64,000 nucleotides of DNA from Citrus sinensis (taxonomy: Eukaryota > Streptophyta > Magnoliopsida > Sapindales > Rutaceae), in contig NC_068558.1 of NCBI RefSeq assembly GCF_022201045.2, positions 48,401,501 through 48,465,500 on the forward strand. Direction: 5' to 3'. Made by a program: the position numbers and the translations under genes. Shown here in pieces: positions 199-56,690 of this stretch (positions are counted from its first letter, which is position 1; the number at the start of each line of letters is the position of its first letter). The notes beneath the pieces are model-generated. The model was not told the DNA's origin. It made no database searches and was given only the letters and a program-made list of their open reading frames with translations.

Positions 199-3100
199 TC
201 AGTGCCTGATAGTAAGCTCAGCCCTGAGGTGGAGGATACCATTGATGAAGTAAAGACTATCATCCGCCATGAAGGATGTCCATGGTATGGCAAATAAGTT
301 TCGGTATCCAACTGCCTTGCCTCCAGTGAATGTGTAGTTGCCTTTGTATTTGCTAACAAACTCCTCAGTAGGCTTTGACCTGGCTGCAAACTCGTAATCC
401 ACAGCAAAACTCACTGACCCCTTTTCCTGCATCCCCAAGAACAACCCAAAACAATGGAAAGAGCTCTGCTGGTCCATGTTGCAGTGTGCAGAGAGGAAGA
501 ACCCTTGCCCACCCAAGTGAAATGCTTGAGAGTAGACGCGTCCAGATGGGAACAAATTTTCACACTCCTCCCGCTTCAAGTCCAGGTAAACCACACATTG
601 TTGCCGAGGACGCTCAAATTCTACTACTTTGACGGGCCGATACTTGTATGCACGTTCAACAAAGCGTCGATTCAAGGTGACCGACTCCTCTGCCGCCAAG
701 GTTCGTTGTCGATGTGGGGCTTCAGCCTTAAAGAACAGAGCTTCAAGCACTAACTTGGACGCAACATCATGATCAAAGTCATTACAGGTTAAAACCTTCT
801 TTAGCTTCCGGCAGGTCATGTGAGGAAAGCGAATGAAGCGTGCAAGACGTGAGCCCAAAACCTCACGTCGCTCCTCCACTCTCGGGTACTGGGCTCTGGC
901 CCACTTTAACACAAAATCATATACAGCATCTTCAGAAGCAATTTGAAGATCATCACTAGACAATATTGCCTCAACTCCAGCAAGGGGCAAGGCCATTACC
1001 TCATCTTGGAACCTGGTAAAAATGAAAACCTCATGCATAAGCTTCCCAAATATTAGAAGCGTTAAAGTCTCACAAGCATTTAAACCTTCTAAATAAGGAA
1101 TCCAGTAGAACAGTCAAGAATACAATCCCATACAAGCAAGAACCTACTTGGTCATGTCCTTATATCGAGATGCAAGGTACTGTCTCGCAGCATCGGTCAA
1201 TGGCTGGACTGCTTCACCCATCAGGACACTGGAGGGAAGCTCCAGATAAAGCAATGCAGACTCTGGAGTCATGGGCATATTCCTCAATAGACGGCTGCAG
1301 TATCGCATGCATGAAGCAACCTCAAACTTGTCCGCAGCCATAAGCACATCAAGCAATGCAGGAGCTGCAGTAGTCGATAAAGTATTGCTGTACATAAAAT
1401 TCAGAAGTTCCATGAGGGCAGCTTCCTCTGCTCAAGAAAAGAAAGAACTTATTAAAAGTAGCACTGGTAAATTTAATTATCCAATAATAAGCAAAGGACC
1501 TCAAGCAAGAAATCTTACAAAGATAAAGAATAATTATTTATCAAATAACAGCCAATAAAAATTGACCATACCAGATGCATTGATACGCAGCGCTACATGT
1601 CGTTGTTCTGACTCCTTCATCCCATTTGAGAATAGCTACAACAGATAAACAAAAAAGATTCAGAATCATGTGATAGAAAACATCTATTAGTGATTGCACC
1701 AAAATTTTAAAAACACCACAGAGCAAAATCATAACCCTACTTTGTAGAAAAATGGACTTTTTGCCGCTAAGATTGGAGAGCTTATGTGTAATGTTTTAAC
1801 TCTCACAACTGTAGAACAATCCATGCTCCAGCTTGACTCATTTCCATTTGCAGCTTCATCACCTGCAAGAGTCACAACATTCAGAGTAGAACGACCATGG
1901 ACAAATCCAAAACAGATAGCCAAAGAGTTATAGAAAGAAACATATTCATTTACTCTAAAGATTACACGAGTTCTTCATCAAACAACCCATTAAACAAAAA
2001 TAATCTACCAAGTGTTGTATTGGACATATAATGCCTTATCGAATCCAGAAACCTCATGGGCACATTATGACATTGTTCAGTCTTAAACTAAAGACTAACA
2101 CGTGCACAAACCACCACCCCCCCCCCCCCCCCTGGGGCGCGGGAGAAAAAATAATATTACTATATCTTATCTTCCCAATAAGTACACAATCTATTAAAAA
2201 AAAAGAAAGGTCATACAGGACACTTACTCATTACTAATTTGACAGAACGAAAAGATCTGTATACTTTAAAGAAACACCAAAAGGAAAATGTAAATTCATA
2301 GAAAACCTTTTCACTACCTGAGGGTGACCCTTCAATCATTGCCTCCACTTCCTCATCTTGGTTTTCACAGCCCACACAATCATCCATATCGGGCTGGTTT
2401 AAAATCTGCTCCTCAGGGCAAGCAGAGAGATCCAAACCTGAAAATTAGTTGTAAATGCCAATCAACATCAAACCATATCATATGCCAGGGAAGCAAGGAA
2501 AGGCCCCCATGCTTATGAATAGGCTCAAACATTCACTAATAAAAAAGTAATACAATCTTTATTCTTACACATTTTCCAAGCCCTAAAAAGACTCGTAGGC
2601 AGATTAAATCTTTTTCCCACAACAGAAAATAGGCTAATATAACATATGAGAACTCATTTTTTGCAGCCAATCATCCACAAAGTATTTGCTACATTAACTC
2701 AGCTTTATATGATGAACAGCACAAATCCCCCGCCCCAACAATATTTTAGAACAAAAGAAAATCAAATCAAAGCTTCAACTAGAATTCTTCATTCAAAATG
2801 ACATTGATTGGACACTGGGGGTTATATGCTTCCATGAATTATACCAGCTTTTACGAGACCAAACAACAAAACTCAAAATTTAGACTGCATTACGTACTCC
2901 TCATTTTTCAGGCACAACAAAATCAAATTTTGATAAACAAATTACAGCTCAAATCTCAATATTCACTTTCCTCAGCTTTCTCACAGCTGCAAAACAAAGA
3001 TGCAAACTTTCAATTGGCCAAAACCACCCTCCTTTCTATCTTTATCCACAAATATCTAGCCAAACAAACAGTAACCATACAGGAAAATTGGAAAAAAATT

Positions 3101-5551: not shown

Positions 5552-5561
5552 TTGTACAAAA

Positions 5562-6679
5562 GGGTAATTTTTAAAAACCTCTCATGAGATTTAAGCATGT
5601 TGCAAGTAAATGGTGAAAATCAATTTATTTGTAAAAAAACCTCGTACCATCAGTTAAAAATTCCATTGACTAACTGTTAACTTTGAAAAGATAATATTAC
5701 CCCCAATAATAATTTATAGATCGACACAACTAAAGTACAAGGGCTGAAACTTATGATGCGTAAACCACTGACTTTATTTTTTTGATATTTTTACCCTCAC
5801 AATTCTAAATATTTACAATTTCATAAGTAATTAAAACAATTATTTTCACCATGATCAAGTTATTGATAATTCCTTAAAATCTTAAAAAAATTAAAATTAC
5901 AAATCTTAAAATTTATAAAAAAATATGCTACTGTTTTTCTATTAAATTTTCTGTTGTTTCTCGGTAAATTCGCTGTTATTTTGTGTATGACGCTTGCCCG
6001 AAAACGGTCACGATATATTTTGAATGGGTAATGATGGGGATTGATAGTAAAAGTTTGTATTTCTTAAATTTTTTTACATTTGACAACTCACTAATTCATG
6101 TGTAGGTCTATTTAAAATTTGTTCTTGTTTATGGAGCTTGTTGGAAATTTGTCATAATGCATTTTGAATGGGTAATGATGGGGATGGGCAGTAAAAGTTG
6201 TTTGTGTTATTTGAACTTCCCGAATCCATTAAGAGTAGAGGGGAAGAAGAAATGCAAATTGTTTGTGTGTGCCGCTTGTGAGCCTTAAATTAGCGTGCAA
6301 GCCAATTGTCCTATAGCAAAACAATTATATATATTTTTTAAGTTTGTAATTTTTTTAAAAGATTTTAAGGAAATATCAATAACTTGATCATGGTGAAAAT
6401 AATTATTTTAATTACTTATGAAATTATAAATATTTGGAATTGTAAAGGGTAAAAATATCAAAAAAATAAAGTCAGTGGTTTACGCATCGTAAGTTTCAGC
6501 CCTTGTACTTTAGTTGTGTCGGTCTATAAATTATTATTAAGGTAATATTATCTTTTTAAAATTAATAATTAATCAATGAAAATTTTAACTGACGGTAGGA
6601 GGTTTTTTACAAATAAAATAATTTTTACCATTTACTTGCAACAATCTAAAATTTCAAGGGAGATTTTAAAAAATTATCC
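5562..6679. mobile_element. Non-autonomous MULE-like foldback element (1.1 kb)
   Basis: The ends are long inverted repeats of about 360 bp (roughly 5562-5925 and 6315-6679), beginning GGGTAATTTTTAAAAACC at the left and ending AAAATTATCC at the right. The element is flanked by an exact 10-bp direct repeat TTGTACAAAA at 5552-5561 and 6680-6689. Long TIRs plus a 9-11 bp target duplication are the hallmark of Mutator-like elements. No transposase reading frame is present, so the element is non-autonomous. The central 390 bp has its own direct repeat: a GAATGGGTAATGATGGGGAT core recurs near 6020 and 6164. Confidence 0.85.
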
Positions 6680-7035
6680 TTGTACAAAAATTTGAATAAC
6701 GACTAGGGGCAAAAGAAAAATACAAAATTTTCAAAGTGAAGAAGGCAAAATTCAAATACGATTTGGAGAGATCCTTCTGTCAAGGTCATGTCACACCATC
6801 GTTAATAGACCGTGATATTATCAGTACTTGGTAAAATAATTAATTAATTTCTGCCAAAAATTGTTCGACAAGCAGGCAACCTCAGAGTGTAATGCAACAA
6901 GCCAAAAATTGGTAGTCTCGTCTTAGTAACTTCTTTCTTCGCTTTCCCGGCCAATTCCTCTTATTTATCTTCTTTTTTTATCGCAACGTACACTGTAAGC
7001 TGCAAGAGCAAGACACACGCAACCACAGGAATTCA

Positions 7036-8491: not shown

Positions 8492-8744
8492 AAGAACACG
8501 GACTTGATTTCTTACTTTAATTTGACCGTGCACATCTGACATCACAGAATGTGGAAGGTGTAAAAAAACGGATAGTTAGCCTCAATTTTAATTAATTAAT
8601 GAAAGCAACGACATATATTACGCATAAAATGTAGAGAAACAATTATTCAACAGAAAGCGAAAAGAAAAAAAAAAGAAAAAAAGAGGAACACTGTAGAGAT
8701 AGAGAAAACGGTGAACAAGTGTATGTTACACAACACACATACAG
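8492..8744. other. Short AT-rich gap
   Basis: Unique-looking AT-rich sequence with A-rich tracts near 8660-8690, just past the 3' end of the first MIR159-like precursor (which is on the minus strand). No gene or repeat boundary recognised. Confidence 0.4.
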
Positions 8745-8945
8745 GAGGTGGAGGTGCTCCCTTCAATCCAAACAAGGACAGAAGAAGGCAAACACGTCCC
8801 CGAGGTCATGCAAACCCTTACGATGCGCATATATATATATCTAAAGTGTACGTCACAGAGGTATCCACGAACCAGCTGACGGGTTAATTACCCTCTCTGC
8901 TTCCTCATTTTGGAGTAAAGGTAGCTAGCTCCATTTCAGTAACAC
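8745..8945 (-). ncRNA. MIR159: MIR159-like precursor 1 (variant mature sequence)
   Basis: Read on the minus strand, positions 8772-8752 give TTTGGATTGAAGGGAGCACC plus one base. The first 17 bases equal classical miR159 and the 3' end differs (GCACC instead of GCTCT). About 40 nt upstream in the transcript lies GGGTTTGCATGACCTCGGGG (8796-8818 region), matching the conserved second block (miR159.2 position) of MIR159 precursors. The partly complementary 5' arm (GGAGCTAGCTACCTTTACTC, about 8915-8935) closes a foldback of about 190 nt. In the family the mature RNA guides ARGONAUTE against GAMYB or TCP mRNAs. Pairing of the basal stem is imperfect, so processing is not certain. Confidence 0.68.
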
Positions 8946-9061
8946 CCAAAACCTAGTGGACTAGCAGGCGCTGCACTCTGAAACCTAAACCCACAAAGAC
9001 AAGAGGAGAAAGTTCTGTTGATGTCTCTGAAGGAACTTTTGTATATAGCTAGTAACTAGGG

Positions 9062-9069
9062 CTTTTATA
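9062..9069 (-). promoter_or_regulatory. Putative TATA box of MIR159-like locus 1
   Basis: Minus-strand TATAAAAG about 120 bp upstream of the predicted hairpin, a normal position for a Pol II pri-miRNA promoter. The locus at 16.9 kb has the same word in a similar place. Confidence 0.45.
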
Positions 9070-9249
9070 TCGAGAACCGAGAACGGTGATTGAGATGAGC
9101 CCTAGCTAGCTAGCAGAAGCCAGTGGACAGACGACGAGAATCGGATAGGATTTTGACATTAATGGGGGAAATCTGTGAGGATAGATTTTCTCTTGAAACG
9201 AGACAGCTGTGTAGTGTGTAAAGTGTTGTCTAACCTAATATAAATCTCT

Positions 9250-10490
9250 GAGTCTGACAATAGTCGAAACACATATCATTTCTAATGGAGGCGGAGGCCA
9301 CGCCACAGCCCCACGCCCATTAATCTTTCTTCTTTCCGTTTATCCTCTTTTCAAATTTCACAATCTGGGTTGTAACTAGGCCAAGTGTATCCTACATTGT
9401 ACCTAACATTACACTTGTAATTGCACCCTAAAATCAAACACGCGCTTGAATTTGTTGACTGCAATATTTCTGTTGATATACATTACATTATATTGAACGT
9501 TATGTAACATAGCATGATCTATTTAAGTAATAACTCATAACTGGCTTTTTTAGCAACTTACTGCAAATTCATTTGGGTTATTGGAGTGATCTAGTTATTA
9601 TGACACTCGACGTGTGAGATTGTAATGCTATAATCTTTAAATGCGAGCCCGAGGATTTCAATGGTAGAAAATATAGTAATAATAATAATTTTGAGGGGGA
9701 TCATAACCAAATAACAATAAAATGGGAGGAAATATAATATCCTCTAAAATTCACATGCAAATGCAATTGCATTAAATTAGAGAAAATTTTTGGTGTTCCT
9801 AAAACATTACTCCTTAACCATTCACTATTTACTATGTATATATGCAAATTATTAAGATTAATTAAAGTATATACATGACGAACAATAAAGTATCTACTAT
9901 TTGATAAGTAGTGCTCTAAGAGCATCAAAGACTTTTCCTTCATTAAATACCCTAATCTTCGTTGATTTTCTTTTACTTGGCTCCATATTTGATGGTCCAT
10001 CTAAGGCTTCAACGTAATTCTGAGCAACCAAGTTAGCTGTGAAATTATATTTATACTAATTTACTAATACTTATTACTACAAAATAATTATTAAAGGGAA
10101 ATTAATTTTATTTAACTAATTAAATCAATTAATAATATGACATGTTATCAGTATGATAGTCATATAGAGTTTTATTATGAAGTCAGAATTTGTTGAAACT
10201 ATCAACAGCATATCATACATGTTCCGTAAATTTTACGAGATGCCATCTAAATTGATGGGGAATTTATAAATGTCACCGTTCCATAAACGTTTATGGCATG
10301 TCATTATGACACTTGACATTAGCAAATCTGTTCAGCGCATTTGACGCCCCTTTTTATCACCTTTCCTGCCTTCTTGCAAAGCACACTCTGCAGCTGTCGT
10401 CGATAGTACACGACTCATCATCAAATTAACACATGCTGAACTTTATAATTCATCCAATCCAACCATTTATATTATTTTAATTTAATTAAA
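9250..10490. other. AT-rich intergenic DNA
   Basis: Contains the likely upstream region of MIR159-like locus 1 and AT-rich filler. Short reading frames here have no recognisable composition or motif. No transposon ends were resolved. Confidence 0.4.
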
Positions 10491-10562
10491 TATCCATCTC
10501 TTTTGATCGAATGCGTTATTAGTTGAGCATGAGATTGCTGTGTGTAAATTCCACATGTAGCT

Positions 10563-10877
10563 ACCAATGGGCCTTTGGTCCAGTGGGAGAGCCCTTGCAC
10601 TTAGAATAATGAGTGCAAGGGTTCGAGCCTCCATGAAAATATTTATGAGACTTATTTACAATCCTTCCTCAATTATCAAATAATTGAGTAGAGCCAGTCT
10701 ATTCCTCATAAAAGGTGAGTAGAGTAGACAGCCCTCGAATATTTGAGAGGGTTTGAAGAATTTGGGCAGCGCTTCAGAGGAGTACATGCCACGATGAAGG
10801 TCCCAATTGTAGAATCTGTTTATAAATATTAATTATAATACCTACAGTCCTGTATAACAGTATTAAAAAAAAAAAAA
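10563..10877 (+). mobile_element. tRNA-derived SINE, copy 1
   Basis: A 315-bp element with an internal Pol III promoter: an A-box-like TGGTCCAGTGG near 10577 and a B box GGGTTCGAGCC near 10619. It ends in CTGTATAACAGTATT followed by poly-A. The flanking 15-bp target duplication is ATTCCACATGTAGCT (10548-10562) and ATTCCACATGTAACT (10878-10892), one mismatch. This structure is diagnostic of LINE-mobilised SINEs. It interrupts the defensin-like relic described next. Confidence 0.9.
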
Positions 10878-10885
10878 ATTCCACA

Positions 10886-11050
10886 TGTAACTGAAAAGAC
10901 AAGGAGAGCAAGGCATAGAATCCCAACAAATTAAGAAGAATTTTTTGACAGTACGTAGCATCAGTGTTGGCAAAAGCCATTTTTGGGCAAATTCTTTGTT
11001 TAGGGATGATATTGCTGAAGCCCGAATCGTGCTTATTATTTTATACATCA
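10886..11050 (-). pseudogene. Relic of a defensin-like gene: promoter and exon 1 only
   Basis: On the minus strand this resembles the promoter and first exon of the intact gene at 13.2-13.6 kb. Both have TATAAA(A)TAATAAGC about 60 bp before the start, then GATTC, then ATGGCTTTTG(A/C)CAACACT. The signal-peptide-like exon continues as a hydrophobic stretch, but the cysteine-rich second exon is missing. A SINE lies directly downstream in the transcript sense. Sequence beyond the SINE (10490-10540) matches the 3' flank of the intact gene (12966-13010), so this was a duplicate that lost exon 2. Confidence 0.7.
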
Positions 11051-11807
11051 TTCTACACCTATCATAGAAGGTAAAGAATGATGCCTTTCCGGTTATATAA
11101 ATATTTATGTATCCTTTAACTCAGTATCCATATATAATTCTATTTTAGACCTTTAGATGTAATAAACAACTCAGACAGGTTACTTGCTTTGCGTTTTGAA
11201 GCATATATACAATTGGATTAAGGATTTTCCTTCCACAATTTGCAGAACAAGATACAGTAATAACTAAAATATTGCTAATTCTAATAAGATCCCTTGAGAA
11301 GTGTACGTAATAATTTTTTTAGTTTTTTTATTATTTTAAGTTTCCTTGCTCTTATTTTCAAATTAAACGTAATATTCTTGGATTTAAGCTATTGACGTTT
11401 TGTTACCACAAACTATAATAGACTAACTAATTAAATTATGCTTTGAAAATACTAGGGCAGTAAACTAGCTATTTGTATATTAATTATATAAACGAAATAT
11501 GTTGAAGGAAGATAGGCGAAAATTTCCTATTGTTTCTTCTATCATTATATGGAATGACAGAAAATTTCCATTATGCTTATGAAACAAAGAGAGAGAGAGA
11601 GAGAGATTGATCTCACGTTAGTGGAAGGATAATTTAATATTTATAATGCTTATTGAGGGGGACGGTATGGGAAATTTTAGTTTTGTTAATTAATGTATCT
11701 TGTTCTTGTATTATATGAATGAAACTATATTGAGGAGTCCACAGGGCGGAGAGGATGTGAATGTTAAAAATTACAATAATATTATCGGCTCATCTTATTG
11801 CTTTGCT
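11051..11807. other. AT-rich intergenic DNA with a GA microsatellite
   Basis: Unannotated AT-rich DNA with a short (GA)n run near 11588-11605. No gene-like frame and no transposon boundary seen. Confidence 0.4.
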
Positions 11808-11815
11808 TCATTTCA

Positions 11816-12563
11816 GGGAAAATTTACACCAATAGTCATAAAAATTTTGGCTTTTATCATCTTAACCCCCCAGACAAATTTCTATCAACATTAGCCATAA
11901 AAGAACCTTTGAGACTAAAATACCCCTCTCTCTCATCTCTCCCCCAACACTCTCTTTCACCCATCTCTCCCAAACCGAACAAACTCCCATCATCGGCGGT
12001 AACATCAGCCCTCGTCGGTGGCGGCTTCATCCCTCATCGGCGTCCGATCTACCATCTACAGTCTTCAATAAAGCCTAGGTTAGTTATTTTATTTATTTTC
12101 ATTTATACATAGTGGTATGAGTTATTTTCTGAACTTGGTCGAGAGTTTTAGTGAACTGCAAGTCGTGGGTGAATCTGGCGACATGTTGCCTGTCGCACCA
12201 ACGATTGGTGCGACAGGCAACATGTCGCCAGATTCATGCACGACTGGCAGTTCACTAAAATTCTCGAGCAAGTTCAGAAAATAACTCGTACCACTATGTG
12301 ATGCCGATTAGTATTGGATCCGGATAGATTATGATCATATTTAACTATTATCGTTGTCTTTTGTCGTCGCCGTTGGTTGATGATTCAAGAGTGAAAAACT
12401 GCCTTTAGTTTGACGAAAGAGGAGAAAGAAAGTTGCTTTTGGTTTATAAAGAAGGACAATTTGGGGAGAAAAGCGTGTGTTTGGTTAATGTTGATAGAAA
12501 AAAAGTTGAGAGGATTAATTGTAAAAATAACAAAAATTTTATGATTATTTTTGTAAATTTCCC
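11816..12563. mobile_element. TIR element carrying a 193-bp central palindrome
   Basis: It begins GGGAAAATTTACACC and ends GTAAATTTCCC; the homology between the two ends continues inward for about 45 bp. The 8-bp flanking repeat TCATTTCA (11808-11815 and 12564-12571) can be read as 9 bp if the next G is counted. The ends and duplication suit a Mutator-like element, with hAT as the alternative. Inside, the left half is GC-richer than its surroundings (CT-rich, then CATCGGCGG-type sequence near 11990-12060), which may be captured host DNA. The middle is a long hairpin. No transposase. Confidence 0.75.
12107..12299. repeat. Near-perfect 193-bp palindrome (95-bp arms, 3-bp loop)
   Basis: Arms run 12107-12201 and 12205-12299 around CGA, with only about seven mismatches. 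The innermost part (GGCGACATGTTGCCTGTCGC and its complement) pairs perfectly. If transcribed from either side it would form one long RNA hairpin. Confidence 0.93.
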
Positions 12564-12571
12564 TCATTTCA

Positions 12572-12960
12572 GACGCTCATGTTACTTAAAAGACATGAAA
12601 TGTGTTTACTCATAAATTTCATATATATGATAACGGTGCAAAATTCTTGATGATTTATCACAGCTTTGCTACAGTTGTGATTTGGGAGAGTACTGATTTT
12701 GTTGGCAATTATCGCACTTAAATCTTCCATCTCGCGCGATCGTCTCATTTTAATTAAAAAAATATATTTGCCATAATATCGCCCAACCTGAAACAAAGTT
12801 CCGCTGGCCACCAAGTGCTATTAAATAAATAAATATACAATATTTCATCAATTAACAAATACACAACCATCTAAAAATTAAAAAAAAAAAAAAAAAAACT
12901 TACTCACTTTATTACGTTTATAAAAATAAACAATATATCTGAAGTAATTATTTAAATAAC
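12572..12960. other. AT-rich gap
   Basis: AT-rich sequence with a poly-A run near 12880. I see no gene in it. The part from about 12960 onward is the 3' flank of the defensin-like gene and is shared with the relic at 10.5 kb. Confidence 0.4.
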
Positions 12961-13209
12961 AATCAATCCCTTTTGATCCAATGCATTATTAGTTGAAAAT
13001 GAGACTGTCTTAATCTTGAATTATGAGATCATTCACGCGATATCATATGCATCTAAAAGTCGCATGATTGTCTGAATCAAAGCGAGATTAAGGGATATCT
13101 GGAAGTAATTAAAAGTATAATTTATTTAATTATGAAGTCAAGCACAATGCTAATTAAAGGCCGACAAAGTTAACAGCTTGGGAACAACGATTTATAATGA
13201 AAATTGTCC

Positions 13210-13619
13210 TCATACTTTACAAAAACAATCATTAGGCGGGCCAGACTGATAAGGCGGAGAATGTTTCCTGCATACGACGCCGTACCGGGGGATATACTCT
13301 CCCTTGGACTTGCAAAGCTCCGTGCAGTCGGAGTCGTTGTTACAATGCCCAGCGTATAGCAAAGTGCCGCCCGGAGGCACTTCTGCGACTCCATACCCCG
13401 CCGCTGAAATTGCGTAATATATGATATATACTAAAATTAATTAATTAATTCATTCATTCATTCATCAATTAAATTTAGTTGCACGAGACGACTGATTAAC
13501 GATGCATTCTTAATTGATTTGTAGGCTTTAATTTAAATGTACGAACCTGAAGTGAGCAGAACGGCGATAAGCGCGACAAAGAAGACAAAGAGAGCAGAAC
13601 GAGTGTTGTCAAAAGCCAT
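13210..13619 (-). CDS. Defensin-like cysteine-rich secreted peptide (88 aa)
   Basis: Two exons, 13547-13619 and 13210-13403, joined by a GT-AG intron in the typical DEFL position just after the signal peptide; too short and split to show as one reading frame. Exon 1 gives a classical signal peptide (MAFDNTR, then a hydrophobic run ending VLLTSG). Exon 2 carries six cysteines spaced C-x5-C-x3-C-x13-C-x14-C-x-C. The C-x3-C and C-x-C pairs are the cysteine-stabilised alpha-beta signature. In the family such peptides are secreted and serve in defence or in cell-to-cell signalling; which applies here cannot be told. A TATAAATA lies 61 bp upstream of the start. A truncated duplicate lies at 10.9 kb. 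Confidence 0.78.
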
Positions 13620-13679
13620 TCTCACCAAACGCTAGATTTAGTTTGCTTGTGGAAGTTGCTGCGCTGAATCAAAGCTTAT

Positions 13680-13687
13680 TATTTATA
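13680..13687 (-). promoter_or_regulatory. TATA box of the defensin-like gene
   Basis: Minus-strand TATAAATA followed by ATAAGC, about 60 bp before the start codon. The same block and spacing are retained in the relic at 11039-11045, which supports its function. Confidence 0.6.
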
Positions 13688-14082
13688 CAACATTTTTGCA
13701 TATATTATAGAAATTAAAAATAAAAAAAACAACAACAACAACAGCAATATTAATGCATTTCTAATTTTACATCTTTTACAAGGATTTGGCATCCATATAT
13801 GAATCCATCTTTAAATGGAATTAAGTATCTCATACAGCTTGGCGTAGGGGTTTTTATGTTCTGAAGGGTATGCTGGGATTGATTCTCTTAAAATAAATTA
13901 AATGATTTTCACTCACTTAAGTCATATACATATTTAGAAAATGAAGTAATACTTATATATTATGCTCCTACGTTTTTTTTTTTTTTAAGTGTCGAGAGAT
14001 ATTTCAAATTTTATGCCAAATGGTATATCATTTATTAAGTAGTTAGTAATTCTTTACAGAATCTAAGTGAAATGAAACTTTA

Positions 14083-14841
14083 GGATGAGGTTATTTATAT
14101 TCTATATTTTACATTGAACACTATTTTACATTGAACACTATTTCAATAAATTTTAAAAATTAATTTTTACTCTGCACACTTTTTCAAGTATAAAAAATTA
14201 TCAAAACAATCCTCTATTTATATCTTACCATTATCTCATCCAATTTTATTCTTTATTAAAAGAAAAGAGTTCCATTCTATAAAATTCTATTATTGTTATT
14301 TGTTAAAAAGATATCAAATCTCTCTTTATCAAATTATCATTCTTCCTCTCTTCAAATAAAATATTTTTTCTTTAAAAGAATAAATTTCTCTTACTTTTAT
14401 TAGAGAGTTATGGACTTGAGAGTCCAATTTGAATTTGTAATTGACAATCTTCAAGCAACGGCAACATGTGCAGCTAATTTCACTTTCATTTTCCTTTTTT
14501 TTTAGGGGTTTATTTTTTCAAAATAATTTTACTTATTTTTGTGCATAAACAAAAATTATTTTTCAATTTCTTTAGTATACAGCTTGTTGGATTTTATTCA
14601 ACCTTTAATATTTTCTTTTACAATGATGAATTTGATTTGATATTGAAGAAAGTTAAATTAATTATAATTGGATTATTGAATTGGGAGGGTGTATTAAATG
14701 GTGTCAAGAGAAATAATATTTTACTAACTTAAATTAAATTATCCTTATTAGTAAATCACATTAAGGGTACTTCTAAAAGAACATTTTTTTATTAAAATTG
14801 AAATGTTCAAAGTAAAATATAGAGTGCAAATAACCCCACCC
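14083..14841. mobile_element. MITE with 35-40 bp terminal inverted repeats
   Basis: The left end GGATGAGGTTATTTATATTC and the right end (inverted) GGGTGGGGTTATTTGCACTC are related, and both continue as TATATTTTAC(A/T)TTGAACA. Flanks GAAACTTTA (left) and ATTACTTTA (right) agree at 6 of 9 bases, which is a worn target duplication. A tandem repeat of TTTTACATTGAACACTA lies near the left end. There is no transposase and the superfamily is not assigned. Confidence 0.6.
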
Positions 14842-14850
14842 ATTACTTTA

Positions 14851-16080
14851 ATAGAAATGACAAAAATTTGATTCATAAGGTTGTTAAACAACACTGAGGA
14901 TTTCAAAAGAAAAATCAACCAAAGTAGTTACAGTCATTAGGATTGCATTTATTGTAATTATTAACCACATATCACAATATCAAAACAATTTATAGTAAAT
15001 AATCCTCGTCAATAATATTGAATAATGAATAAAATAGTTAATAACTGTACTGATCAATAATCATAATAATGTTAATTGTGTTATCAGTTAGTAGCGATTA
15101 GTGATATGTATTGCTGCTTAGATTATGCCTTTCTTTTTTCTTTAACTATGTTCAATCAATATGTTTGTTATGAAATTTTTACAATAATTTTTGTCGCGTT
15201 ATTAATAAATATATCATTTTCTTACTTAATAAGAGAATATTCTTCCCACGTAATCAATATCATAACGATAATAAAAAAAGGGGTAATGGTTAATTTTCCT
15301 GATATAAAGATAGTTTTTAATATAATCTCACACTCACAGACACTTTTAAAGAAGGGGGGAGAGAGAGAGGATATATGTAGTAAATAATGCTCATCAATCA
15401 GTAAAATCCTATATGTTACTAGTTATTTTTTTGAAGTATCTAAATACAAACTTTTATACCTTGATTTCTTTGTTAATAAAAAGTCGATTTGCAATATTGA
15501 TACATATATATGTAGAGAAGGGTTGGGGGGGGGGAGGGCTGGAATATGAAATCAAAATCTACCTCTAAAGGTAAGGAGTAACATTTTTAAGACTTACGTA
15601 TAATTTATGGCTTGAGATTCAACACTTTAATTGAAAAAAAAGAAGAAGAAAGGATAACATGTACTCCTCTAGAAATTAATACAGTGGAAAAATAATTCTA
15701 AACCCACTGAATAAAATGTCGCACACATTTTCATCTAATAAGAGTTAGATCCTAGATTATGCAACCATTTTCAACTCTAGGATGTAAGATAATAAAGAAA
15801 AATAATTGATTAATTAATAAATTTCATTGTAAAACAAGAAAGACATACAAATTGAAATCTCTTGTCATCACACAAGCTTAATTCTATAGTATCAACTCCT
15901 CTAATAATAATATGAGTAGCCCATTGGTTTCGTGCTCAAGCATAAAGCCGTGTATGTTACTACAAATAAAACCATATAGCATAGAATTAATTATTTAATT
16001 AGTTTTCAGATTTTTTCTGAAATATCTTACCACGAGTGCATAGATAGTAAAATAAATTATGTAGTTAGATGGCAATTAAA
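14851..16080. other. AT-rich intergenic DNA
   Basis: No coding or RNA signal recognised. A G-run near 15524-15537 and several A/T runs are the only distinctive low-complexity features. Confidence 0.4.
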
Positions 16081-16085
16081 AAGAA

Positions 16086-16253
16086 TAAAGCTTACTTCAC
16101 CACAAAAATGAAAAGACAAAAGGGTGACCTAACCTCGTCTCCAAGCTCATGCAAACCCTATCCTCAAATATATGTCTTTTTGAGTAGTCAATTCATGGGC
16201 ATGCATTAACAAGAAGCTAGGCTTGGTCTTCCTTTCACTTCTTTTCTTATTTG

Positions 16254-16260
<7 letters not shown>
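16086..16260 (-). pseudogene. Decayed MIR159-like precursor 2
   Basis: The minus strand carries the conserved GGGTTTGCATGAGCTTGGAG (about 16139-16158) in the same spacing to the mature position as in the two flanking copies. The mature-equivalent at 16106-16086 reads TTTGTGGTGAAGTAAGCTTT, six mismatches from miR159. No good complementary 5' arm is visible, so it should not be processed as miR159. It is most simply a relic, though a diverged new small RNA cannot be excluded. Confidence 0.5.

Positions 16261-16287
<27 letters not shown>
16255..16287. repeat. (TA)n microsatellite
   Basis: Uninterrupted TA dinucleotides, followed 60 bp later by a poly-A run. Confidence 0.95.
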
Positions 16288-16288
<1 letters not shown>

Positions 16289-16914
16289 GATAGTCTAAGA
16301 GGCTTTAGATGCATTTCAGTCCACTGAATTCTGATATCTAGATTGGAAAAAAAAAAAAAAAAAAATCTGCTGGGATTTTCTTCTCTGAATTGGCGATTTG
16401 CATGCCGATGTTATTGCTGAATGACATCTACTTTTCACAATTGGTTTGATTCCTCAATTTTTTTCTTTAAAAAAACTTATACGTAATTAACTTTCAAAAG
16501 GCATCAATCCAATATTTGAATAATTAACCAAATAAATAAAGTAATAAGCGAAAGTACAGAGAAATTTTTTATTATTTTATTTGTCACGTAAATAAATAAA
16601 TAAATATTTAAAAAATTAATTAAAAGAATTTCTTTTCAGTGATACTCTTACTACCAAAATAGAGTAGTGAAGCCAACGACCGAAAACATGCCACATCGTC
16701 AAGTACATGAAGAGTTTATTAACATGTAAATTAACTTAAAAATGAATTAAAAAAAAAAGAAAAAAGAAAAAAAGCTAGCGTTCTTGATCTGGTGGGTGCA
16801 TATCAGTAACTTGATTGTTGAGCCAATAAGAGCCCTTCAGTACCTGGAAGAAAGATAACGCAGAACAATATAAATATTTCAGGGGAAAGGCCAGTTAGAA
16901 TAATGAGATGTCCA

Positions 16915-17093
16915 TGAATGGAGCTCCCTTCACTCCAATACCAAAAAGATCAAGGTAGCCTCGTCTCCCAGTTCATGCAAACCCTTAGACTGCGCCACAG
17001 TATTGAGTCTGCGCAACCACGGGTGTTCATGGACTAGCAGCCGTGGCCTACCATCACCTCCTTTCAGACTTGGAGTTCAGAGAGCTCCATTAA
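16915..17093 (-). ncRNA. MIR159: MIR159/319-like precursor 3
   Basis: The minus strand folds into a hairpin of about 180 nt. The 3' arm at 16939-16919 reads ATTGGAGTGAAGGGAGCTCC plus one base. The 5' arm at 17090-17070 reads ATGGAGCTCTCTGAACTCCA, pairing along almost the whole length with only a two-base internal mismatch and a G-U. The inner block GGGTTTGCATGAACTGGGAG matches the miR159.2 region. The mature sequence is intermediate between miR159 (TTTGGATTGAAGGGAGCTC) and miR319 (TTGGACTGAAGGGAGCTCC), but the precursor layout favours MIR159. This is the best-paired of the three copies. Confidence 0.8.
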
Positions 17094-17226
17094 AACCCTA
17101 ATTGCAGTTTCTAAACTACTAAACAAACTTCATTGCACCAACATAATATTGTAATGCTAAAACTTCAAAGCTATGCATGAAGTAAAAGAATAAAATTAGT
17201 TGCTGGACTTGGGAACCAAGATGGTC

Positions 17227-17234
17227 CTTTTATA
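17227..17234 (-). promoter_or_regulatory. Putative TATA box of MIR159-like locus 3
   Basis: Minus-strand TATAAAAG (followed by GACC) about 135 bp upstream of the hairpin base, in the same arrangement as at locus 1. Confidence 0.5.
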
Positions 17235-18670: not shown

Positions 18671-21600
18671 TTAGAAGGAACTTTTAGAGGGTTTTGAACA
18701 AGAGTGCTGAGCTTCTAACCTTGCTTCCAGTAATTTCTCCTTCAGGGTATTCACCTTCAAGCCTCTAGGTACTTTCAAAGAAGATTCGGATTTTTCAAAA
18801 TCTGGGGACGTCAATTTTGACATCCACTTCTGCACTGGACTTCCATGACTAGTGAATAAGGACTGAACATGAGAATCTTCCTTTAAATCAGTCTCAGGAT
18901 GAACCTTATCGCCTTCTGATGATAAGGAATGATTTCTGATTAAGTCATCAACCACGTGATTTAATTTCAATCCACCAGCTCCATTGTGTTTGCTTTCTTC
19001 GGTAGCCCCAGTCTCTCCTTCTAGCTCACCCCGTTCCCAATCTGGAAACTGGGACTCGGTTCTAGTCACTTGTTCATGGAACCATCCTGGTAAACTGGAC
19101 AAGTTATGACCCTTATTCCTTTTCCTTGACCTAACCTTTTTCTTTCCTGAATTTGAATTTACCAATTCTTCAAGATGCCCTTTTCTTGCACTATCCCCAT
19201 GCTGTTTAGAGCTGCCTCTGCTTTGTTTCCTGCTTGCACTCTTGTTTAGTTCTAAAACTTGTAAATCGACATCAGTAGAATATTCTTCATTAACAGTGTC
19301 TCGAGGAGCACTTACAGCCTCATTCAAGGGAAATGACTCTGTAGAATGACGAGAGGAATGACTTTTCTTTTGCTCATTTGTGGACAAGCTACCACCGGTC
19401 CTTGATTTAGAGAAGTGCTTAGCTTGAAGGAAATTCTCTATATCAAGACGTAGCTTGTCCAGAATTGTATTTTTATCTGAGAGACTATTTTGTGTTTCTG
19501 CAATCTTCATTTGCATCCGCTCATCAAGCCAAGATTCCGAAATATGGAGGATTAACCTGTCAGCATTTTTCATATGAGCATGATCCATCTCTGGCTTGTG
19601 TCTTAGTAATCGCACCTCTTCTTCATAATCCCTAATTCCCTTGGCGAACTCATCGCACAAGTTCTCCAGTAGAATCCTTGCTTTCCTTTCTCTTTCAAGT
19701 TCTTTCAGAATATTGGAGAAAGATGATTTCATATCAGAGAGATCTCGAGCTAGCTTCCGATGCAGACTTTCTGAGCATTTCCGTAGCTTCCTCTCATCTT
19801 CAAGCTCATCTTTCCATGACTGAACGGCAGCTTTGATTCTATTTCGCTCCTTGTCTTTCCTGATAATTTTTTCCTCCGCAACTTGCTTCATCAAATCATT
19901 CACTTCTTGCCTTTCTGTTTGCTTCTCTTGCAGCAACTCCTTTATTTTGGTCTGAGAATGATCTAGTTCCATTTTTAAAGCTTTCACCAAGGCTATATCA
20001 GATACATGCTGTTCTTCAAGACTCCAGATTCGATTAAGCACCGTCAGTAACTCCGTGGATGTTTTAAGGTTATACCTAGGCTTACCAAGCTTACCCCGAG
20101 AATCCAAAGAACTGGTGGGAGTAACTGCTGGGTTGTAAGCAGCCACCTGTACAGAGGAGGCGTCTAAATCCATTAAACTTATATAAAGAAGGTAAGCCAG
20201 CTTTTTGAATTGGACCGTCAAAAAGGCATAATAAACTGACAGATAGAATTGTGAAGTTCAAATCCATTACAAGATCAATGTTAATACAGGCAGTCACTGA
20301 AACTTTATCAGGAACTACGGGACAAAATCTTTGCCTCTCTTATCATAACTAAAGCAACATTGAAACGTGATATTTCAAAACATATTGATTTCAAATTTCC
20401 GACATTCATGGATATAACAAATCAATTAATCATAGAAATTAAGGAAGATCTTGTTTGGCTCCTTAGTAGAACAGATGAAGATTATAATTTACAAATTTCA
20501 GTGGGAAAAAAAAATGGTGTCATGTGTTACATGCTTATGTTGATGCCAATTTGAAAAAGATGAGTAAGAAGATATATCCAAATGGATTCCTAAGCGCCAT
20601 GCTCCCTCACATAACAATTTCCTTTGCACTCTGCATAATCTCTTTCCCATTTGATTCCAGTCCAGAAAAAAGAAGAAAACCTTGCAATGGAAGAGTCTTT
20701 GCCTATAACAGGCACATTGCTTGGATACACTCAATACGTACTACTTATATTTCCATATATTTATGACTTTTAACCAAACCACAGAGAATCTAGTCTAGAG
20801 AAAAATTTAAGTAAATACAGAAGAATAGAGATATTCACCTCCATTGAGTTATCATAACTGGCAGGAGATACAGGCTGCAGAGCATGACCATTCCTTTCGA
20901 CTGATTCATGGTGTTTCATCAATGATGCACTGAGGTGCCTCCTTGAGCCACTAGCACTCTCTGGCTGGAAGAATTGCAGGTCATGATTAGTTAACAGTAT
21001 CAAACTACTGAAATAGATACTGGTAATTCCTCTCCAAGTTCACATTTTATGTCTTATTTACTTGTCTTTTCGCTTCTCTAAACACCACAGCTAGAAGGGA
21101 AAAAAGGGGAAAAAAAAATCGAACTTCTGAATTACTTAGATTCAGTTTTCTTCTTTTTCACCATACGGCCAAATAAGCCTCCATCATATCACTCCATTAT
21201 CCTTGTTTTGACAAACAAAAACCATTGAATTGGCAAATTCAAACAATTGATTATTAAACTGACATTAGTCTTTGAGTAATGAAGGAAGGAACACAAACCA
21301 CCAAAATGAACTCGATGCATTACTAAAAAGATCCAGAGAAAAGAGGCCAGTAAGATAACGGGAAGACTCTAGAGCCACTTACATAATTGTAAATCATAGG
21401 AAAGCAAGTAAAACTTTCCGTTCAAAAAAACCGAAAGTATATAATAATCTCTCGTCAACAAATAACCGTTAACCATTAATACTTATTAGTACCCAAAACT
21501 TAAAAAAAAAAAAAAAAAAAGAAACCCAGCAAGCACTAACTTTATATATGTGTGTTTGTGTCTGTGTCAAAATAAGAGTAGTACCTGGCGAGGGTGAGGA

Positions 21601-21983: not shown

Positions 21984-22730
21984 CTTCGCTGTTCACCTAC
22001 CTTTCTTTCGAGTTTCAGCCATCTTGCTCTCTTTTCACTTTCTTATTGGCTAACCTGGACCTCCTGCTTTCTTCCTGCTCGCACTGTGTGTGGGCATTGA
22101 CCATTTGAGTTTCATAGTCAGCACCGAATTGTTTTTTTTTTCCTGAGGCCAAAAATAGCATTATTATAATTATGCATGAACCAAAGACCGACATGCTTTT
22201 TTCCTCTTTTGATGCTAATCTAATCTATAAATAAGGCCACATGATTAATTCCTTTGAATTATAGGCCTCCTCGAAGCTACTATGCCTACGCGATTAGCTT
22301 CGTTAAAATCAAAAGGGCATCAATCAATCTTTGACCATGCTTTTACTGAACTCATTTAAGAATATTAAGTAAGATACGCCTGCTCCAAATTTAATTTAAC
22401 ATAATTAGATTTACAATGATGTCTTTTGTTCCCTCTCTGGCTCTTATCTCAATTGTGATTAAAACTAAAAGCACATCATGTCAATCAAGCCTTAGGCAAT
22501 CGGCTCCGAGGCAAATGGACCAAGCACGAGCACAAAACCACCGGCAGCATTTTGTCCGCTAATTCGTTTTTTGATGTGATCTTAGGCAGTTAAGCTCGGC
22601 TCTCCAGCTGTGACCAACCTTTACGCAAAATGTCGCAACAAAGTTTCTAAAAATAAGACAAACCTGTGGACTGTGTGGTCCATGTACTATTATTATTCTC
22701 AAATTCAATGTTCAACGAACCTCGGTTGCT
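21984..22730. other. Coiled-coil gene upstream region
   Basis: 5' leader and promoter region of the coiled-coil gene, grading into AT-rich intergenic DNA. No other feature seen. Confidence 0.4.
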
Positions 22731-25716: not shown

Positions 25717-26934
25717 TTAGGGAGCAATTTCAAGCCTGGGTTCAAAGCAAAACCCAGTAAAGAGCTGAAGAGGGAACCTCTTAGTCACAGGACATTTATG
25801 TGACCACCTCCATTGTTTCAGGTTCATATCATAAACAAGAAGAGATGGAGCTCCATAGCTCTGGATGTATATGAGATCATCTGTTCCGCTACTTGCAAAA
25901 ACATCATCAAACTCTCCAAATCCTTGGAAAAACTTATGTGGCATCCTAGCAACCTCTTGCCACTCCTTCCCATTCAGAACCCAGATGCCAATTCCCTTAA
26001 TTATGTCAGGCCGATCTTGTTTGCCAATTCCTCCAACCATTACCAGCTTCTCTTTCAGGTTCATTAGGCGCCCGCAAGTCAGAGCACAAGGTACTGGGAT
26101 AAAACTTTTTATCAGCAGAGCATGGGATGATCGGCTAGAAAGATTAAACGAGATCAGGCCATGACGATTTTCTGGTGCACCACCCCCAGTTGCATAAATC
26201 AGAAAATACAGAACCCCATCACAGATAATACTCTCATCTCCAGCTCTCCATCCCGTCAGCACCTCTTTCCAGGAGGTCACCCACATCATTGTATCTGAAT
26301 CATAAATATGGATTGAAAGCTCCCACTGAAAAAAATTCCCCGTGACTTGCTTAGACTTCACAATTGAGACAGTATAGCGATGTGATACTCTGTCCACTGA
26401 GAGTGAAAGCGCACTGTAATCAGAGAATTTCAAACCTGGTGGTTCCTCAAGCTTCTTCCAGCTTTTGGAGATAGGGTTGCAGACATATAACTCACTTCTA
26501 CTGTCATTGTCCATGAAGCAAACCAAACCATATGATGAAGCAATGAACCAATTGGATGTCTCAATGCAGGGGAGTTCAATACCATACCACTTTCGAAGGA
26601 TGGGATCATAAGCATAACCAATTGGCTCATCAGAGCTTGTAAACATAAAATACCAGGGCTTTTGTGATAGGACATTTGAGAAGTTCCACAGAAACCTTCT
26701 TGAACTGACAATCTCATGCCATCTTCTGCACACGCAGCCTGCTCTAAATATGCTAGCTATTGGGAGATAAGCTAGAATGCGTTCCAACAGGTCATCAGGA
26801 AGGATTAAGTCAACAGAAAGCGTAGAAGCTTCTTTATTGCCTTCATCACTAAGCTCTAAGAACGAATCAAACTCATTAATGCCTCTTGCCATGTCATCAA
26901 TGCAATGGTTGATCCAAGATGTTTCTCCATCCAT
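25717..26934 (-). CDS. HWS: F-box/kelch protein, HAWAIIAN SKIRT-like
   Basis: A single coding exon of 405 residues. The start gives MDGETSWINHCIDDMARGIN, close to the family N-terminus. An F-box lies at about residues 45-85 (ILPDDLLERILAYLPIASIF, then CVCRRWHEIV). A C-terminal beta-propeller-like region with kelch-type segments follows (LVMVGGIGKQDRPDIIKGIG; KEWQEVARMPHKFFQGFGEF). In Arabidopsis HWS (At3g61590) is an SCF adaptor that controls floral-organ boundaries and abscission and influences miRNA levels; that function is known for the family and not shown here. The transcript probably has a 5'UTR intron, annotated separately. Confidence 0.92.
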   Translation of the reverse strand: MDGETSWINHCIDDMARGINEFDSFLELSDEGNKEASTLSVDLILPDDLLERILAYLPIASIFRAGCVCRRWHEIVSSRRFLWNFSNVLSQKPWYFMFTSSDEPIGYAYDPILRKWYGIELPCIETSNWFIASSYGLVCFMDNDSRSELYVCNPISKSWKKLEEPPGLKFSDYSALSLSVDRVSHRYTVSIVKSKQVTGNFFQWELSIHIYDSDTMMWVTSWKEVLTGWRAGDESIICDGVLYFLIYATGGGAPENRHGLISFNLSSRSSHALLIKSFIPVPCALTCGRLMNLKEKLVMVGGIGKQDRPDIIKGIGIWVLNGKEWQEVARMPHKFFQGFGEFDDVFASSGTDDLIYIQSYGAPSLLVYDMNLKQWRWSHKCPVTKRFPLQLFTGFCFEPRLEIAP

Positions 26935-26937
26935 AAT

Positions 26938-32224: not shown

Positions 32225-32415
32225 AACACGCTCCATCCCAGTCACACATATAATAGGTTGCTTTTTTTAAATTAAAAAAAAAAATTTATTCATATTTTAT
32301 ATATTAAAGTGCAAATAAAAGACTCATAAGGTCTCTTTCATAATCATCATATATGGAAGGGATGTGTATATGTTTGGTCACAATTTTATTTGGAGAAGTC
32401 ACCAGCGTCGTTCAT

Positions 32416-32567
32416 GGACTTGACTAGCTTACAGAATCTGTAAGCTACAGACTGCAGCATCAGCCGTTGGATGTGGTTAGATGTGGAGTGAGAAACTAAA
32501 CAATAGAAGATCGGATAGTGGGATGACGGGAGATGTTTGTTACAGAATCTGTACCATAGACAGGTCC
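32416..32567. mobile_element. 152-bp MITE, copy 1, with 10-bp target duplication
   Basis: It starts GGACTTGACTAGC and ends CATAGACAGGTCC (inverted: GGACCTGTCTATG), flanked by exact CGTCGTTCAT at 32406-32415 and 32568-32577. The terminal repeats extend about 28 bp and each contains a small palindrome (core TACAGAATCTGTA). The second copy at 57840-57991 has exactly the same length and about 92% identity. The 9-10 bp duplications indicate a Mutator-like transposase in trans. Confidence 0.88.
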
Positions 32568-35150: not shown

Positions 35151-35936
35151 TTAGACGTCTACATTCTCATCAGACGGCTTCGAGCGATTCTTCCTTTCCA
35201 TCAACAGCCCGCACAACATACTCTCTGATGCTGACCTCAGACGATTTATTCTTGCCAAGCAGTTAAGTGATCCATTCCACTCCTTCAACACCGTTGATGT
35301 TGTTGACGATGAAGAAGTCGTCGAGTCAGCACCATCAGAACACAGAGACTCAGCACAAGAAGAATTCTCCCAAGACTCATCATCACCCGCATCAAACTCA
35401 TCAGCCATTGATTTCGATTTCCTCGTCATCAGACTTTCCTTGCGTTTACTCTCTCCCATTAGGTCACGGTACCCAATCGCAGAGACCTCATCGAAAGCCG
35501 GCAAATCAGAACCGTCGATCAGCATGGAACCAATGCTAAGCACTCCCTGGAACCTTCCTGAAGGGCGACGAATCTGGAAGGCCGTAAAAGACGGAGTCTT
35601 GGTAGCCACCGAGAGTGAGATGTTGCTTACGAGGAAACGGACGGTGCCGATGAGGTAATCTCGAAGGTAACCGGAGGCGTAAATCTCGACGGAGATCGCG
35701 GACGTTTCGGAGGATAGGAATTCTGGAGTTACTTTGAAGAGGAACTTTTCGTTCCAGATTGGACTCTCGGCGCCGGCTCGGTCGACTCGAGTGCAAAGCT
35801 TCGTCGAAGAATCGATCCAGACCAGCGCGTATGTTTGCATCCGACGCATTTTAGAGGAGGGCGACTTCAAGCCTTGCGCAGAGATCAAGATGATCTCTAG
35901 GATTTGCGTCGCCATCGCTATTTCCCTCGCTTCCAC
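35151..35936 (-). CDS. C2-domain protein (SRC2/BAP-like, At4g01200 type)
   Basis: Intronless gene of 261 residues, or 254 if the second methionine (MATQILEIILISAQGLKS) is used, which fits the usual C2 start better. The N-terminal C2 domain spans about residues 9-140 and shows the family marks YALVWIDSSTKLCTRVDRAG, SPIWNEKFLFKV and YLRDYLIGTVRFLVSN. C2 domains of this group bind membranes, often with calcium. The tail is acidic and serine-rich (DGADSTTSSSSTTS) and ends in a basic segment; its function is unknown. It precedes a GT gene in Arabidopsis too (At4g01200-01210). Confidence 0.85.
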   Translation of the reverse strand: MEAREIAMATQILEIILISAQGLKSPSSKMRRMQTYALVWIDSSTKLCTRVDRAGAESPIWNEKFLFKVTPEFLSSETSAISVEIYASGYLRDYLIGTVRFLVSNISLSVATKTPSFTAFQIRRPSGRFQGVLSIGSMLIDGSDLPAFDEVSAIGYRDLMGESKRKESLMTRKSKSMADEFDAGDDESWENSSCAESLCSDGADSTTSSSSTTSTVLKEWNGSLNCLARINRLRSASESMLCGLLMERKNRSKPSDENVDV

Positions 35937-36585
35937 TCTCTTTCTTGAATATTCACTTTTTGAGTGGCTGTGATTTGATCAAGATCAAGAGACGGAAGAC
36001 GGACGGCTTTGAGCGGAAGCAAGAAAGAAAGAATAAGGGCGAATCATGTCGCTGGCAGAAAAAGAAACGACCGCAGATGTTAACGTTTTGCCTCCTTATT
36101 CTGTTTTAAAGAGTTCTGGGAAAGAAGATGGCAGTTGAGACTGCACAACCGGAAGTACATCAAATGGCGAAAATACCCTTCGTTTTGGCGGTTCTTTTAT
36201 CTCTGGACGGTTAAGATTTGATCTAATCTAGAACTAGACTTGAATGAATTCGAAGATGCCAGCCATCAGTCAAGGGGTAAACAACTGCCAGTGCCACACT
36301 AACAAAAGGAAGAGTAACGGATGGAACTACACACTCATTCATACACCTTAACTTGAAAAAGCAGTACTCTATTGATACACTACCATCCATTGGACAGTAT
36401 AGCAGACAAACCCCAAATACAAAAACGAGAACCTCATAGTATGAATGTATGATGAGAAAACAACTTTTTTATTTTTTCACACAATATAAACATTACACGC
36501 TCTGCCATATGTGGACTCAACCCGTAAAACCATGAACACACACAACTGACTCATGAGGCTTACAATTGCAACATCAATTCCATAA
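35937..36585. other. C2 gene upstream region
   Basis: Leader and promoter of the C2 gene, followed by the 3' flank of the BAG6-like locus. No extra feature seen. Confidence 0.4.
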
Positions 36586-55236: not shown

Positions 55237-55239
55237 TTT

Positions 55240-55946
55240 ATTACATTTCCATCAAAAACAAAACATGCAAATCAAGAAAAGCAAGAAGGCCAGGGAAGAC
55301 TGTCAATCAAAAACGGAATCTTTGTAAATTAATGTAGAGATTGGAGAGTGTATGGAGCTTGACAAATGAGTAAGATGACGTGGCGGGTGACTGTCTTGGG
55401 TTTGTTGTCACTTGTCAATGAGAGGCCTAAACAAAATTTTAACAGATTTCACAAACCAAAGATTTGGATTTGGAAGAGCCACGGGATTTTTGTGAATCTT
55501 GAAAATGAAACACCAGTGCTACCAACTACCATCGTTGCTTGCTCGCTCGCTTGCTTACGACCTACAAACTCGGTGGAAGAATCTAATATTCTCCAAATTA
55601 ACTCGTGGGTTGTCTTTTTAAGTGTCTGATTGCTTTTGTTTATTTTTTAAGAAAAAACTAAATGAAAATTATTGTCGGTTATAATCATGTCTTTTTCAAT
55701 AGGAGCTTAAGGTACAGTAAGATGAACAATATTATGACGTTAATCGTTATATTTATATTTTTTATTTTTTTATTATAAGATTCGAATTGTTATGATATGA
55801 TTATTTAGGCAGAGTTTATTTACCTTGTAACTGTTGATAATGACGGGTGCTATAAATGTTTATCTGTTTAAAGCAAATTTAAAACTATTGATTAATTCTC
55901 AGTCTAAGTATAACTCTGCTGTGAGCCTAAAGCACGTGGAGCTGAA

Positions 55947-55977
<31 letters not shown>

Positions 55978-56690
55978 CGTCATATGTGTTACTAAGCTTT
56001 ATTTATTTATTAGAAAATAGAACTGTATTTCACGCGGTTTTAAAAAAAAATTAATATTATTAATTTTTCTTACTTTACACTTGATGAAACTGATAAAAAA
56101 TATGAATTAATTTTCTTTTAAGATGAGGCAACTTTATAAAAAAATAAAAAAAAATTATTAGTCAGCAATACATATAAAGAAACAACGCAAGATAAAGAAT
56201 AAAATGAGAGAATATATTATTAAAGTGATTTTATTCATTTCAATTATGTGTGTATAAAACAAAAAGATGAGCTCTCCTTTTATAGTTACATAATCACTTC
56301 ATGAAATTAATGAAAAATTATGAATTATAATTTCTTGTGAGATAGTGGGAGTTATAGGGAAACTAAATGTTGCTAATGAGAGATAGTGAGGAAACTAAGA
56401 GATATATGTTATGAACATCCACATTTATTTTAATAAACTCATAACACTCTCCCTTGGATGTTCATTACAAAAAATGTGCCTCATTAAAACTTTTACATAA
56501 TTGTTATTGTGTAATAACAATCAAATTAATTATGAGAAGATGAAAATCCAAATCTAAAAGAAATTTTCTCTATTTATTAGATAATAGAGAATATACAAAG
56601 ATGAAAAATGGTGATGCCACATCACCTCCTCAAGTCCCAACTTTATATATATATATATATATTTGTTTATTTATTTTTATTGTGTGAGAT
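55240..56690. other. GT gene 5' region and AT-rich DNA with a possible LTR fragment
   Basis: The first 150 bp is probably leader. A (TA)n run lies at about 55948-55973. At 56200-56640 is sequence reminiscent of Ty1/copia LTRs (CTCATAACACTCTCCCTTGG, then ATGTTCATTAC and ATGTGCCTCATTAAAACTTT). I found no LTR pair, primer-binding site or coding domain, so it is only a possible fragment. Confidence 0.35.

Follow-up and report, generated by a model that had tools for sequence, protein, structure and literature searches.

In Citrus sinensis, three homologous foldbacks of the MIR159 type lie on the minus strand within 8.4 kb of one another, in a 64,000-nucleotide stretch of contig NC_068558.1 (here C3; C3:48401501-48465500) that we call the window. 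When the whole 64 kb is searched, Rfam family RF00638 (MIR159) matches all three. They are very probably an old tandem MIR159 cluster at the position of Arabidopsis MIR159C, in which copy 3 is intact, copy 1 is weakened and copy 2 is a pseudogene. The precursors are given below; z values express the minimum free energy (MFE) of a fold relative to shuffled sequences.

8740..8937, minus strand: copy 1, probably weakened MIR159 precursor with a miR159c-like 21-mer (RF00638 71.5 bits, E 2.8e-13; MFE -67.9, z -2.7)
16077..16272, minus strand: copy 2, apparent MIR159 relict (RF00638 32.5 bits, E 0.0027; MFE -62.1, z -5.8)
16907..17099, minus strand: copy 3, apparently intact MIR159 precursor of miR159b type (RF00638 115.1 bits, E 1.9e-24; MFE -91.8, z -6.9)

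Layout of the cluster

Against the curated RF00638 cut-off of 74 bits, copy 3 passes, copy 1 fails narrowly (its score is 70.6 bits in a second version of the region, described below) and copy 2 fails. Copy 1 is a MIR159 homologue just under the Rfam line. The mirror strands also match the family, at 56.3 bits for copy 3 and 42.6 for copy 1, the lower scores being expected of foldbacks. In the long foldback, the miRNA of the 3' arm is paired with the 5' arm at 17 of 21 bases in copy 1 and at 18 of 21 in copy 3. The mature type is that of miR159 and not of miR319: copy 3 carries TTGGAGTG and copy 1 TTGGATTG, whereas the six miR319-type sites of the genome carry TTGGACTG.

The 12-base block GGGTTTGCATGA is found three times in the 64-kb window, once in each copy; its start precedes the mature sequence by 45 nt in copies 1 and 3, and the miRNA-like slot of copy 2 by 52 nt. 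The segment opening with TTTGCATGA begins exactly 42 nt (two 21-nt steps) ahead of the miRNA in copies 1 and 3, and TTTGCATGA is absent from the other six Citrus precursors in the alignment, one of miR159a and five of the miR319 type. Upstream of copies 1 and 3 there is also a TATA-like site, with none at a matching distance upstream of copy 2. The motif itself is common in the window (11 sites observed, 7.25 expected), so that only the matching distances at copies 1 and 3 lend it support.

9062..9069, minus strand: TATA-like site TATAAAAG of copy 1, 132 nt upstream of the hairpin (putative promoter element)
17227..17234, minus strand: TATA-like site TATAAAAG of copy 3, 135 nt upstream of the hairpin (putative promoter element)

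A first-pass annotation of this DNA had already described three MIR159-like loci on this strand at these places, a conserved block near each mature-like sequence, TATA boxes at comparable distances for copies 1 and 3, and the best pairing in copy 3. All of this agrees with the results above, and the folding that it had proposed as a check gives foldbacks for both copies 1 and 3.

Copy 3 and its predicted target

Copy 3 looks like a fully working MIR159 gene, as judged from an anatomy that is complete in its duplex, its exact 21-nt phase and its TATA-like site.

16919..16939, minus strand: miR159 21-mer ATTGGAGTGAAGGGAGCTCCA of copy 3 (18/21 paired), identical to gma-MIR159b-3p and gma-MIR159f-3p
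16961..16981, minus strand: loop-proximal conserved segment (ACR3) of copy 3, 42 nt, i.e. two 21-nt steps, before the miRNA
17067..17087, minus strand: miR159* region of copy 3, with 3/21 differences from the printed gma-MIR159b-5p

The 21-mer is printed in soybean under the two names just given (PMC3141666) and also as gma-MIR159b (PMC2335117), and for tree peony a form with reads has been printed that is offset from it by one base (PMC5852092). The likeness to soybean MIR159b/f thus extends over the whole mature sequence and, with three differences in 21, to the star. The arrangement differs, since the listed soybean loci are widely separated, on Gm09, Gm16 and Gm07, the last with two loci 4.1 Mb from each other, whereas the Citrus copies are clustered.

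The core TTKGANTGAAGGGAGCNC has 12 exact matches in the genome: six of the miR319 type, one in canonical miR159a (C3:42.28 Mb), two each for copies 1 and 3, and one on contig C5. The miR159 core was also looked for in viral contigs, without a match. The match on C5 (C5:16066514; about 1501-1521 of locus L021) lies in an exon that belongs to a MYB gene of the GAMYB type, with the miRNA-complementary site on the other strand, and no Rfam foldback is found at L021 at E 0.01. The site is inside an open reading frame (ORF) of 384 aa with the end of a MYB repeat near its start (Myb_DNA-binding, 17.8 bits, E 0.0037, under the Pfam cut-off of 24.4). At E 0.001 the ORF has no Pfam match; among PDB chains it matches WER and further MYB proteins, with a best E of 0.00022. 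The peptide read over the site, ELPSLQYTETD, is one that we take to be GAMYB-like, and the name GAMYB is used here on the strength of such motifs. The 21-mer of copy 3 is complementary to the site at 21 of 21 positions, whereas canonical miR159a departs from it at three, copy 1 at four and copy 2 at seven (wobbles counted as departures). Degradome evidence has been reported that csi-miR159 acts in sweet orange on the GAMYB mRNAs of a set of loci named in that study (PMC5030777).

On this reading, copy 3 would be transcribed from its own promoter, its precursor would be cut by DCL1 from the loop onwards into phased duplexes, and the miRNA would be loaded into AGO1 and lead to the cleavage of GAMYB mRNA. 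A relative of the copy 3 miRNA with two mismatches occurs at C5:13044933-13044952 (L032), possibly as a second target site or by chance; the reversed control pattern gave four such matches.

Copy 1

8752..8772, minus strand: miR159-like 21-mer TTTGGATTGAAGGGAGCACCT of copy 1 (17/21 paired), 42 nt from ACR3 and the same in the second version of the region
8794..8814, minus strand: ACR3 segment of copy 1, with 4/21 differences from copy 3

The first-pass annotation gave copy 1 a changed 3' end. This holds in comparison with miR159a, from which the 21-mer has three differences; a single base separates copy 1 from what we take to be the sequence of ath-miR159c, the near-obsolete weak copy of Arabidopsis. 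Processing of copy 1 is probably still possible, but would yield a product that matches less well.

Copy 2

16086..16106, minus strand: former miRNA slot of copy 2, with 7/21 differences from copy 3 and 9/21 from copy 1; 49 (not 42) nt from ACR3
16135..16155, minus strand: ACR3 segment of copy 2, with 2/21 differences from copy 3
16257..16284, no strand assigned: (TA)14 tract of copy 2, on the side of the miRNA*; its counterpart in the second version is shorter

Copy 2 had been described in the first-pass annotation as having lost its pairing, which proves to be mistaken: it folds with a z of -5.8, or -4.5 once the TA tract is removed, and its upper stem by itself with one of -4.5 to -5.2, all of them better, relative to the shuffles, than that of copy 1. 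What has gone is the miRNA/miRNA* base of the stem. The loop-proximal stem is retained, the slot is partly paired with itself, and the spacing from ACR3 to the slot is 7 nt longer than in copies 1 and 3. Copy 2 would seem to be a pseudogene that is no longer able to release miR159.

The state of the stem was compared with simulated decay, using random substitutions, 100 runs per setting, and the values of copy 2 itself as benchmarks (z at or below -4.45; 39 stem pairs). With 18 substitutions (half of the 35 differences) in the upper stem of copy 3, two runs of 100 reached the z value and 16 the number of pairs; with all 35, none and two did so. With 22 substitutions (half of 43) in the upper stem of copy 1, the z value was reached in one run of 100 and the pairs in 15. 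When random indels were added, in six settings, 0 or 1 per 100 reached the z of copy 2; these simulations are harsher than real evolution, and it is the substitution-only runs that we use. Free decay since the split would have left a poorer stem than that of copy 2. Loss of the miRNA end at a late stage also explains this, because 16 of 100 runs keep a z of -4.45 or lower after eight further substitutions in copy 2 itself. The contrast between ACR3 and the slot (2/21 and 7/21 differences from copy 3) has a Fisher p of 0.13. A one-sided binomial test that takes its rate from the slot gives 0.013, which is not relied on because the rate is estimated on the same 21 sites.

Five types of MIR159/319 stem-loop have been described, of which types 2-5 have the miRNA and lack a well-conserved loop-proximal duplex (PMC3118147). 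Copy 2 shows the opposite pattern to types 2-5, with the loop-proximal stem kept and the miRNA lost, and this pattern of decay is the sole odd feature of the cluster.

Relationship and age of the copies

Nine precursors of the same genome went into a tree: the three copies of the cluster, miR159a and five miR319-type loci out of six. L021, which is without a foldback, was omitted, as were the short form L011 and the cluster as it stands in the second version of the region; about 200 diverged positions were used. Copies 1-3 split from the other precursors with a moderate ultrafast bootstrap of 81, and copies 2 and 3 are sisters with a likewise moderate 75. Pairwise identity among the copies is 66-75% over 77-88 alignment columns. 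Outside the precursor arms the similarity is almost gone, and because it drops off in this way the duplications are not recent. The cluster therefore appears rather old than fresh, given both the near loss of flanking similarity and its place at the conserved MIR159C position. The order of events may have been that an ancestral gene gave rise to copy 1 and to the ancestor of copies 2 and 3, and that this ancestor was duplicated again, copy 2 later losing its miRNA end. The tandem birth and death proposed in the first-pass annotation is thus supported in that the copies group together and are in differing states, and requires amendment in that the cluster is old and the decay of copy 2 was misread.

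That annotation also found a local cluster of MIR159 loci surprising, which was overstated. On tomato chromosome 8, five MIR159 genes lie side by side, as in Citrus, within about 2.1 kb, and their authors suggest a single transcript (PMC9569937), whereas the Citrus copies span 8.4 kb, are diverged, and have separate TATA-like sites at copies 1 and 3. In cucumber, four of six miR159 sequences are placed on one chromosome.

A second version of the region

At a distance of 1.34 Mb, contig C3 carries the region once more (C3:49745999 onwards), with 98.9% identity over 22.3 kb. The parts of the window that were sampled (1-30036 and 51715-59123) recur as pieces of 94-99%, and about 5.2 kb extra is present in the second version at window 22229-22245. 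This may be a leftover second haplotype or a real segmental duplication. The two versions differ by 141 substitutions in 22,168 aligned bases. There are none in the hairpin and leader of copy 3. The hairpin of copy 1 has one substitution and a 6-nt gap, both outside the miRNA, and its leader one substitution. In the hairpin of copy 2 the TA tract is shorter in the second version and three bases are substituted, two of them unpaired near the loop and one paired in the 5' arm; this last substitution weakens the stem there, to a z of -3.4. In Rfam searches of L001 and L010 at E 0.01, copy 3 is listed in both and copy 2 in neither.

Neighbouring genes and the position of MIR159C

All of the genes considered below are on the minus strand and were found as ORFs of the window.

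199-1113, minus strand: BTB/BACK gene of the POB1 type
18671-20257, minus strand: At5g41620-like gene
25717-26937, minus strand: F-box gene
35151-35978, minus strand: C2 gene
36586-39271, minus strand: BAG6

The order along the window is thus BTB/BACK, copies 1-3, At5g41620-like, F-box, C2 and BAG6. The BTB gene has no PDB match at E 0.01. The BAG6-type protein is 99% identical to one recorded for Citrus sinensis. In Arabidopsis, where we read gene order from locus numbers, At2g46255 is MIR159C (PMC2988730), At2g46260 is LRB1, and At2g46240 is BAG6, head-to-tail with At2g46250. MIR159C is therefore numbered between LRB1 and the pair At2g46250/At2g46240, an arrangement that the neighbours here match. 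The At5g41620-like and BTB/BACK genes are old neighbours, because among the matches listed for Carya illinoinensis they bear the adjacent tags I3843_01G066300 and I3843_01G066400. The Arabidopsis locus differs in being a single stem-loop of 225 bp, with transposable elements lying 214 bp upstream of it, whereas Citrus has three foldbacks, one of them intact. Arabidopsis MIR159c is reported to be very weakly expressed and poorly processed, with hallmarks of obsolescence, yet to be active if overexpressed (PMC2988730).

Some other features of the window should be mentioned. Between copies 1 and 2 there is a near-perfect palindrome of 193 bp (12107-12299; MFE -169 kcal/mol, z -29.8), which looks like a foldback transposon or miniature inverted-repeat transposable element (MITE). 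A MIR403 candidate within it (12149-12257) was rejected, as its two strands score 33.9 and 33.1 bits against a cut-off of 70, which reflects the palindrome and not the family. A mir-3688 candidate at 48781-48832 was likewise rejected (E 0.77). A 154-bp repeat occurs in direct orientation at 32414-32567 and 57838-57991 (92% identity), and an inverted repeat of about 360 bp at 5552-5917 and 6330-6687 (88% identity).

Alternative explanations

It could be argued that all three copies are relicts and the cluster obsolete, the work being done by canonical miR159a. We regard this as unlikely. The cluster shares its position with the near-obsolete Arabidopsis MIR159C, the canonical precursor is present (L015, 114.8 bits), and the only miR159 form printed in the Citrus papers searched is the canonical miR159a, with miR319 alongside. 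However, copy 3 has a foldback as good as the canonical one (115.1 and 114.8 bits), shows no change between the two versions of the region and fits the MYB site at L021 better than does canonical miR159a. That the foldbacks are independent in origin, or are chance hairpins of AT-rich DNA, is scarcely credible: copies 1 and 2 are under the Rfam cut-off and little flanking similarity remains, but the 12-base block is exclusive to the three copies within 64 kb, and the Rfam E values, the pairwise identities and the common group in the tree all argue for shared descent. Several points nevertheless weigh against an old cluster with a working copy 3. The 21-mers of copies 1 and 3 do not appear in the Citrus csi-miR159 papers searched (main texts, GAAGGGAGC); At2g46250 is presumed by us to belong to the At5g41620-like family; the bootstraps of 81 and 75 are not strong, with some 200 diverged positions; and the lack of changes in copy 3 between the two versions is no proof of constraint, because only about one is expected per 193 bases.

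A further proposal concerns copy 2, which might be alive as a MIR159 gene without miR159, kept for small RNAs from the loop-proximal stem (the ACR duplex). Its upper stem folds well, to a degree reached in only two and one of 100 simulations from copies 3 and 1, respectively, and its ACR3 has changed less than its slot, the reverse of the usual family pattern (PMC3118147). Loop-proximal small RNAs are known in the family (PMC3118147), as with vvi-miR159c.2 of grape (PMC4434875). We nevertheless think this very improbable: the Fisher p is 0.13, 16 and 15 of those simulations, out of 100 each, reach the count of stem pairs, the second version has an arm substitution that weakens the stem and, at E 0.01, no Rfam listing for copy 2, no TATAAAAG is found at the matching distance, and late loss of the miRNA end fits the same facts.

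Implications

As an old cluster with one apparently intact copy, one apparently weakened and one that has lost its miRNA, this is an ordinary example of the birth and decay of gene copies, and the clustering of MIR159 genes is itself already known from tomato. Three stages in the decay of a deeply conserved microRNA are seen side by side at one position. If copy 2 does make ACR small RNAs, it would bear on why the family keeps loop-to-base processing, a question left open in 2011 (PMC3118147); the by-product duplex of the family would in that case have become the product. Finally, the comparison suggests that the near-dead MIR159C of Arabidopsis may be the remnant of a locus which in Citrus has an apparently working gene of the miR159b type.

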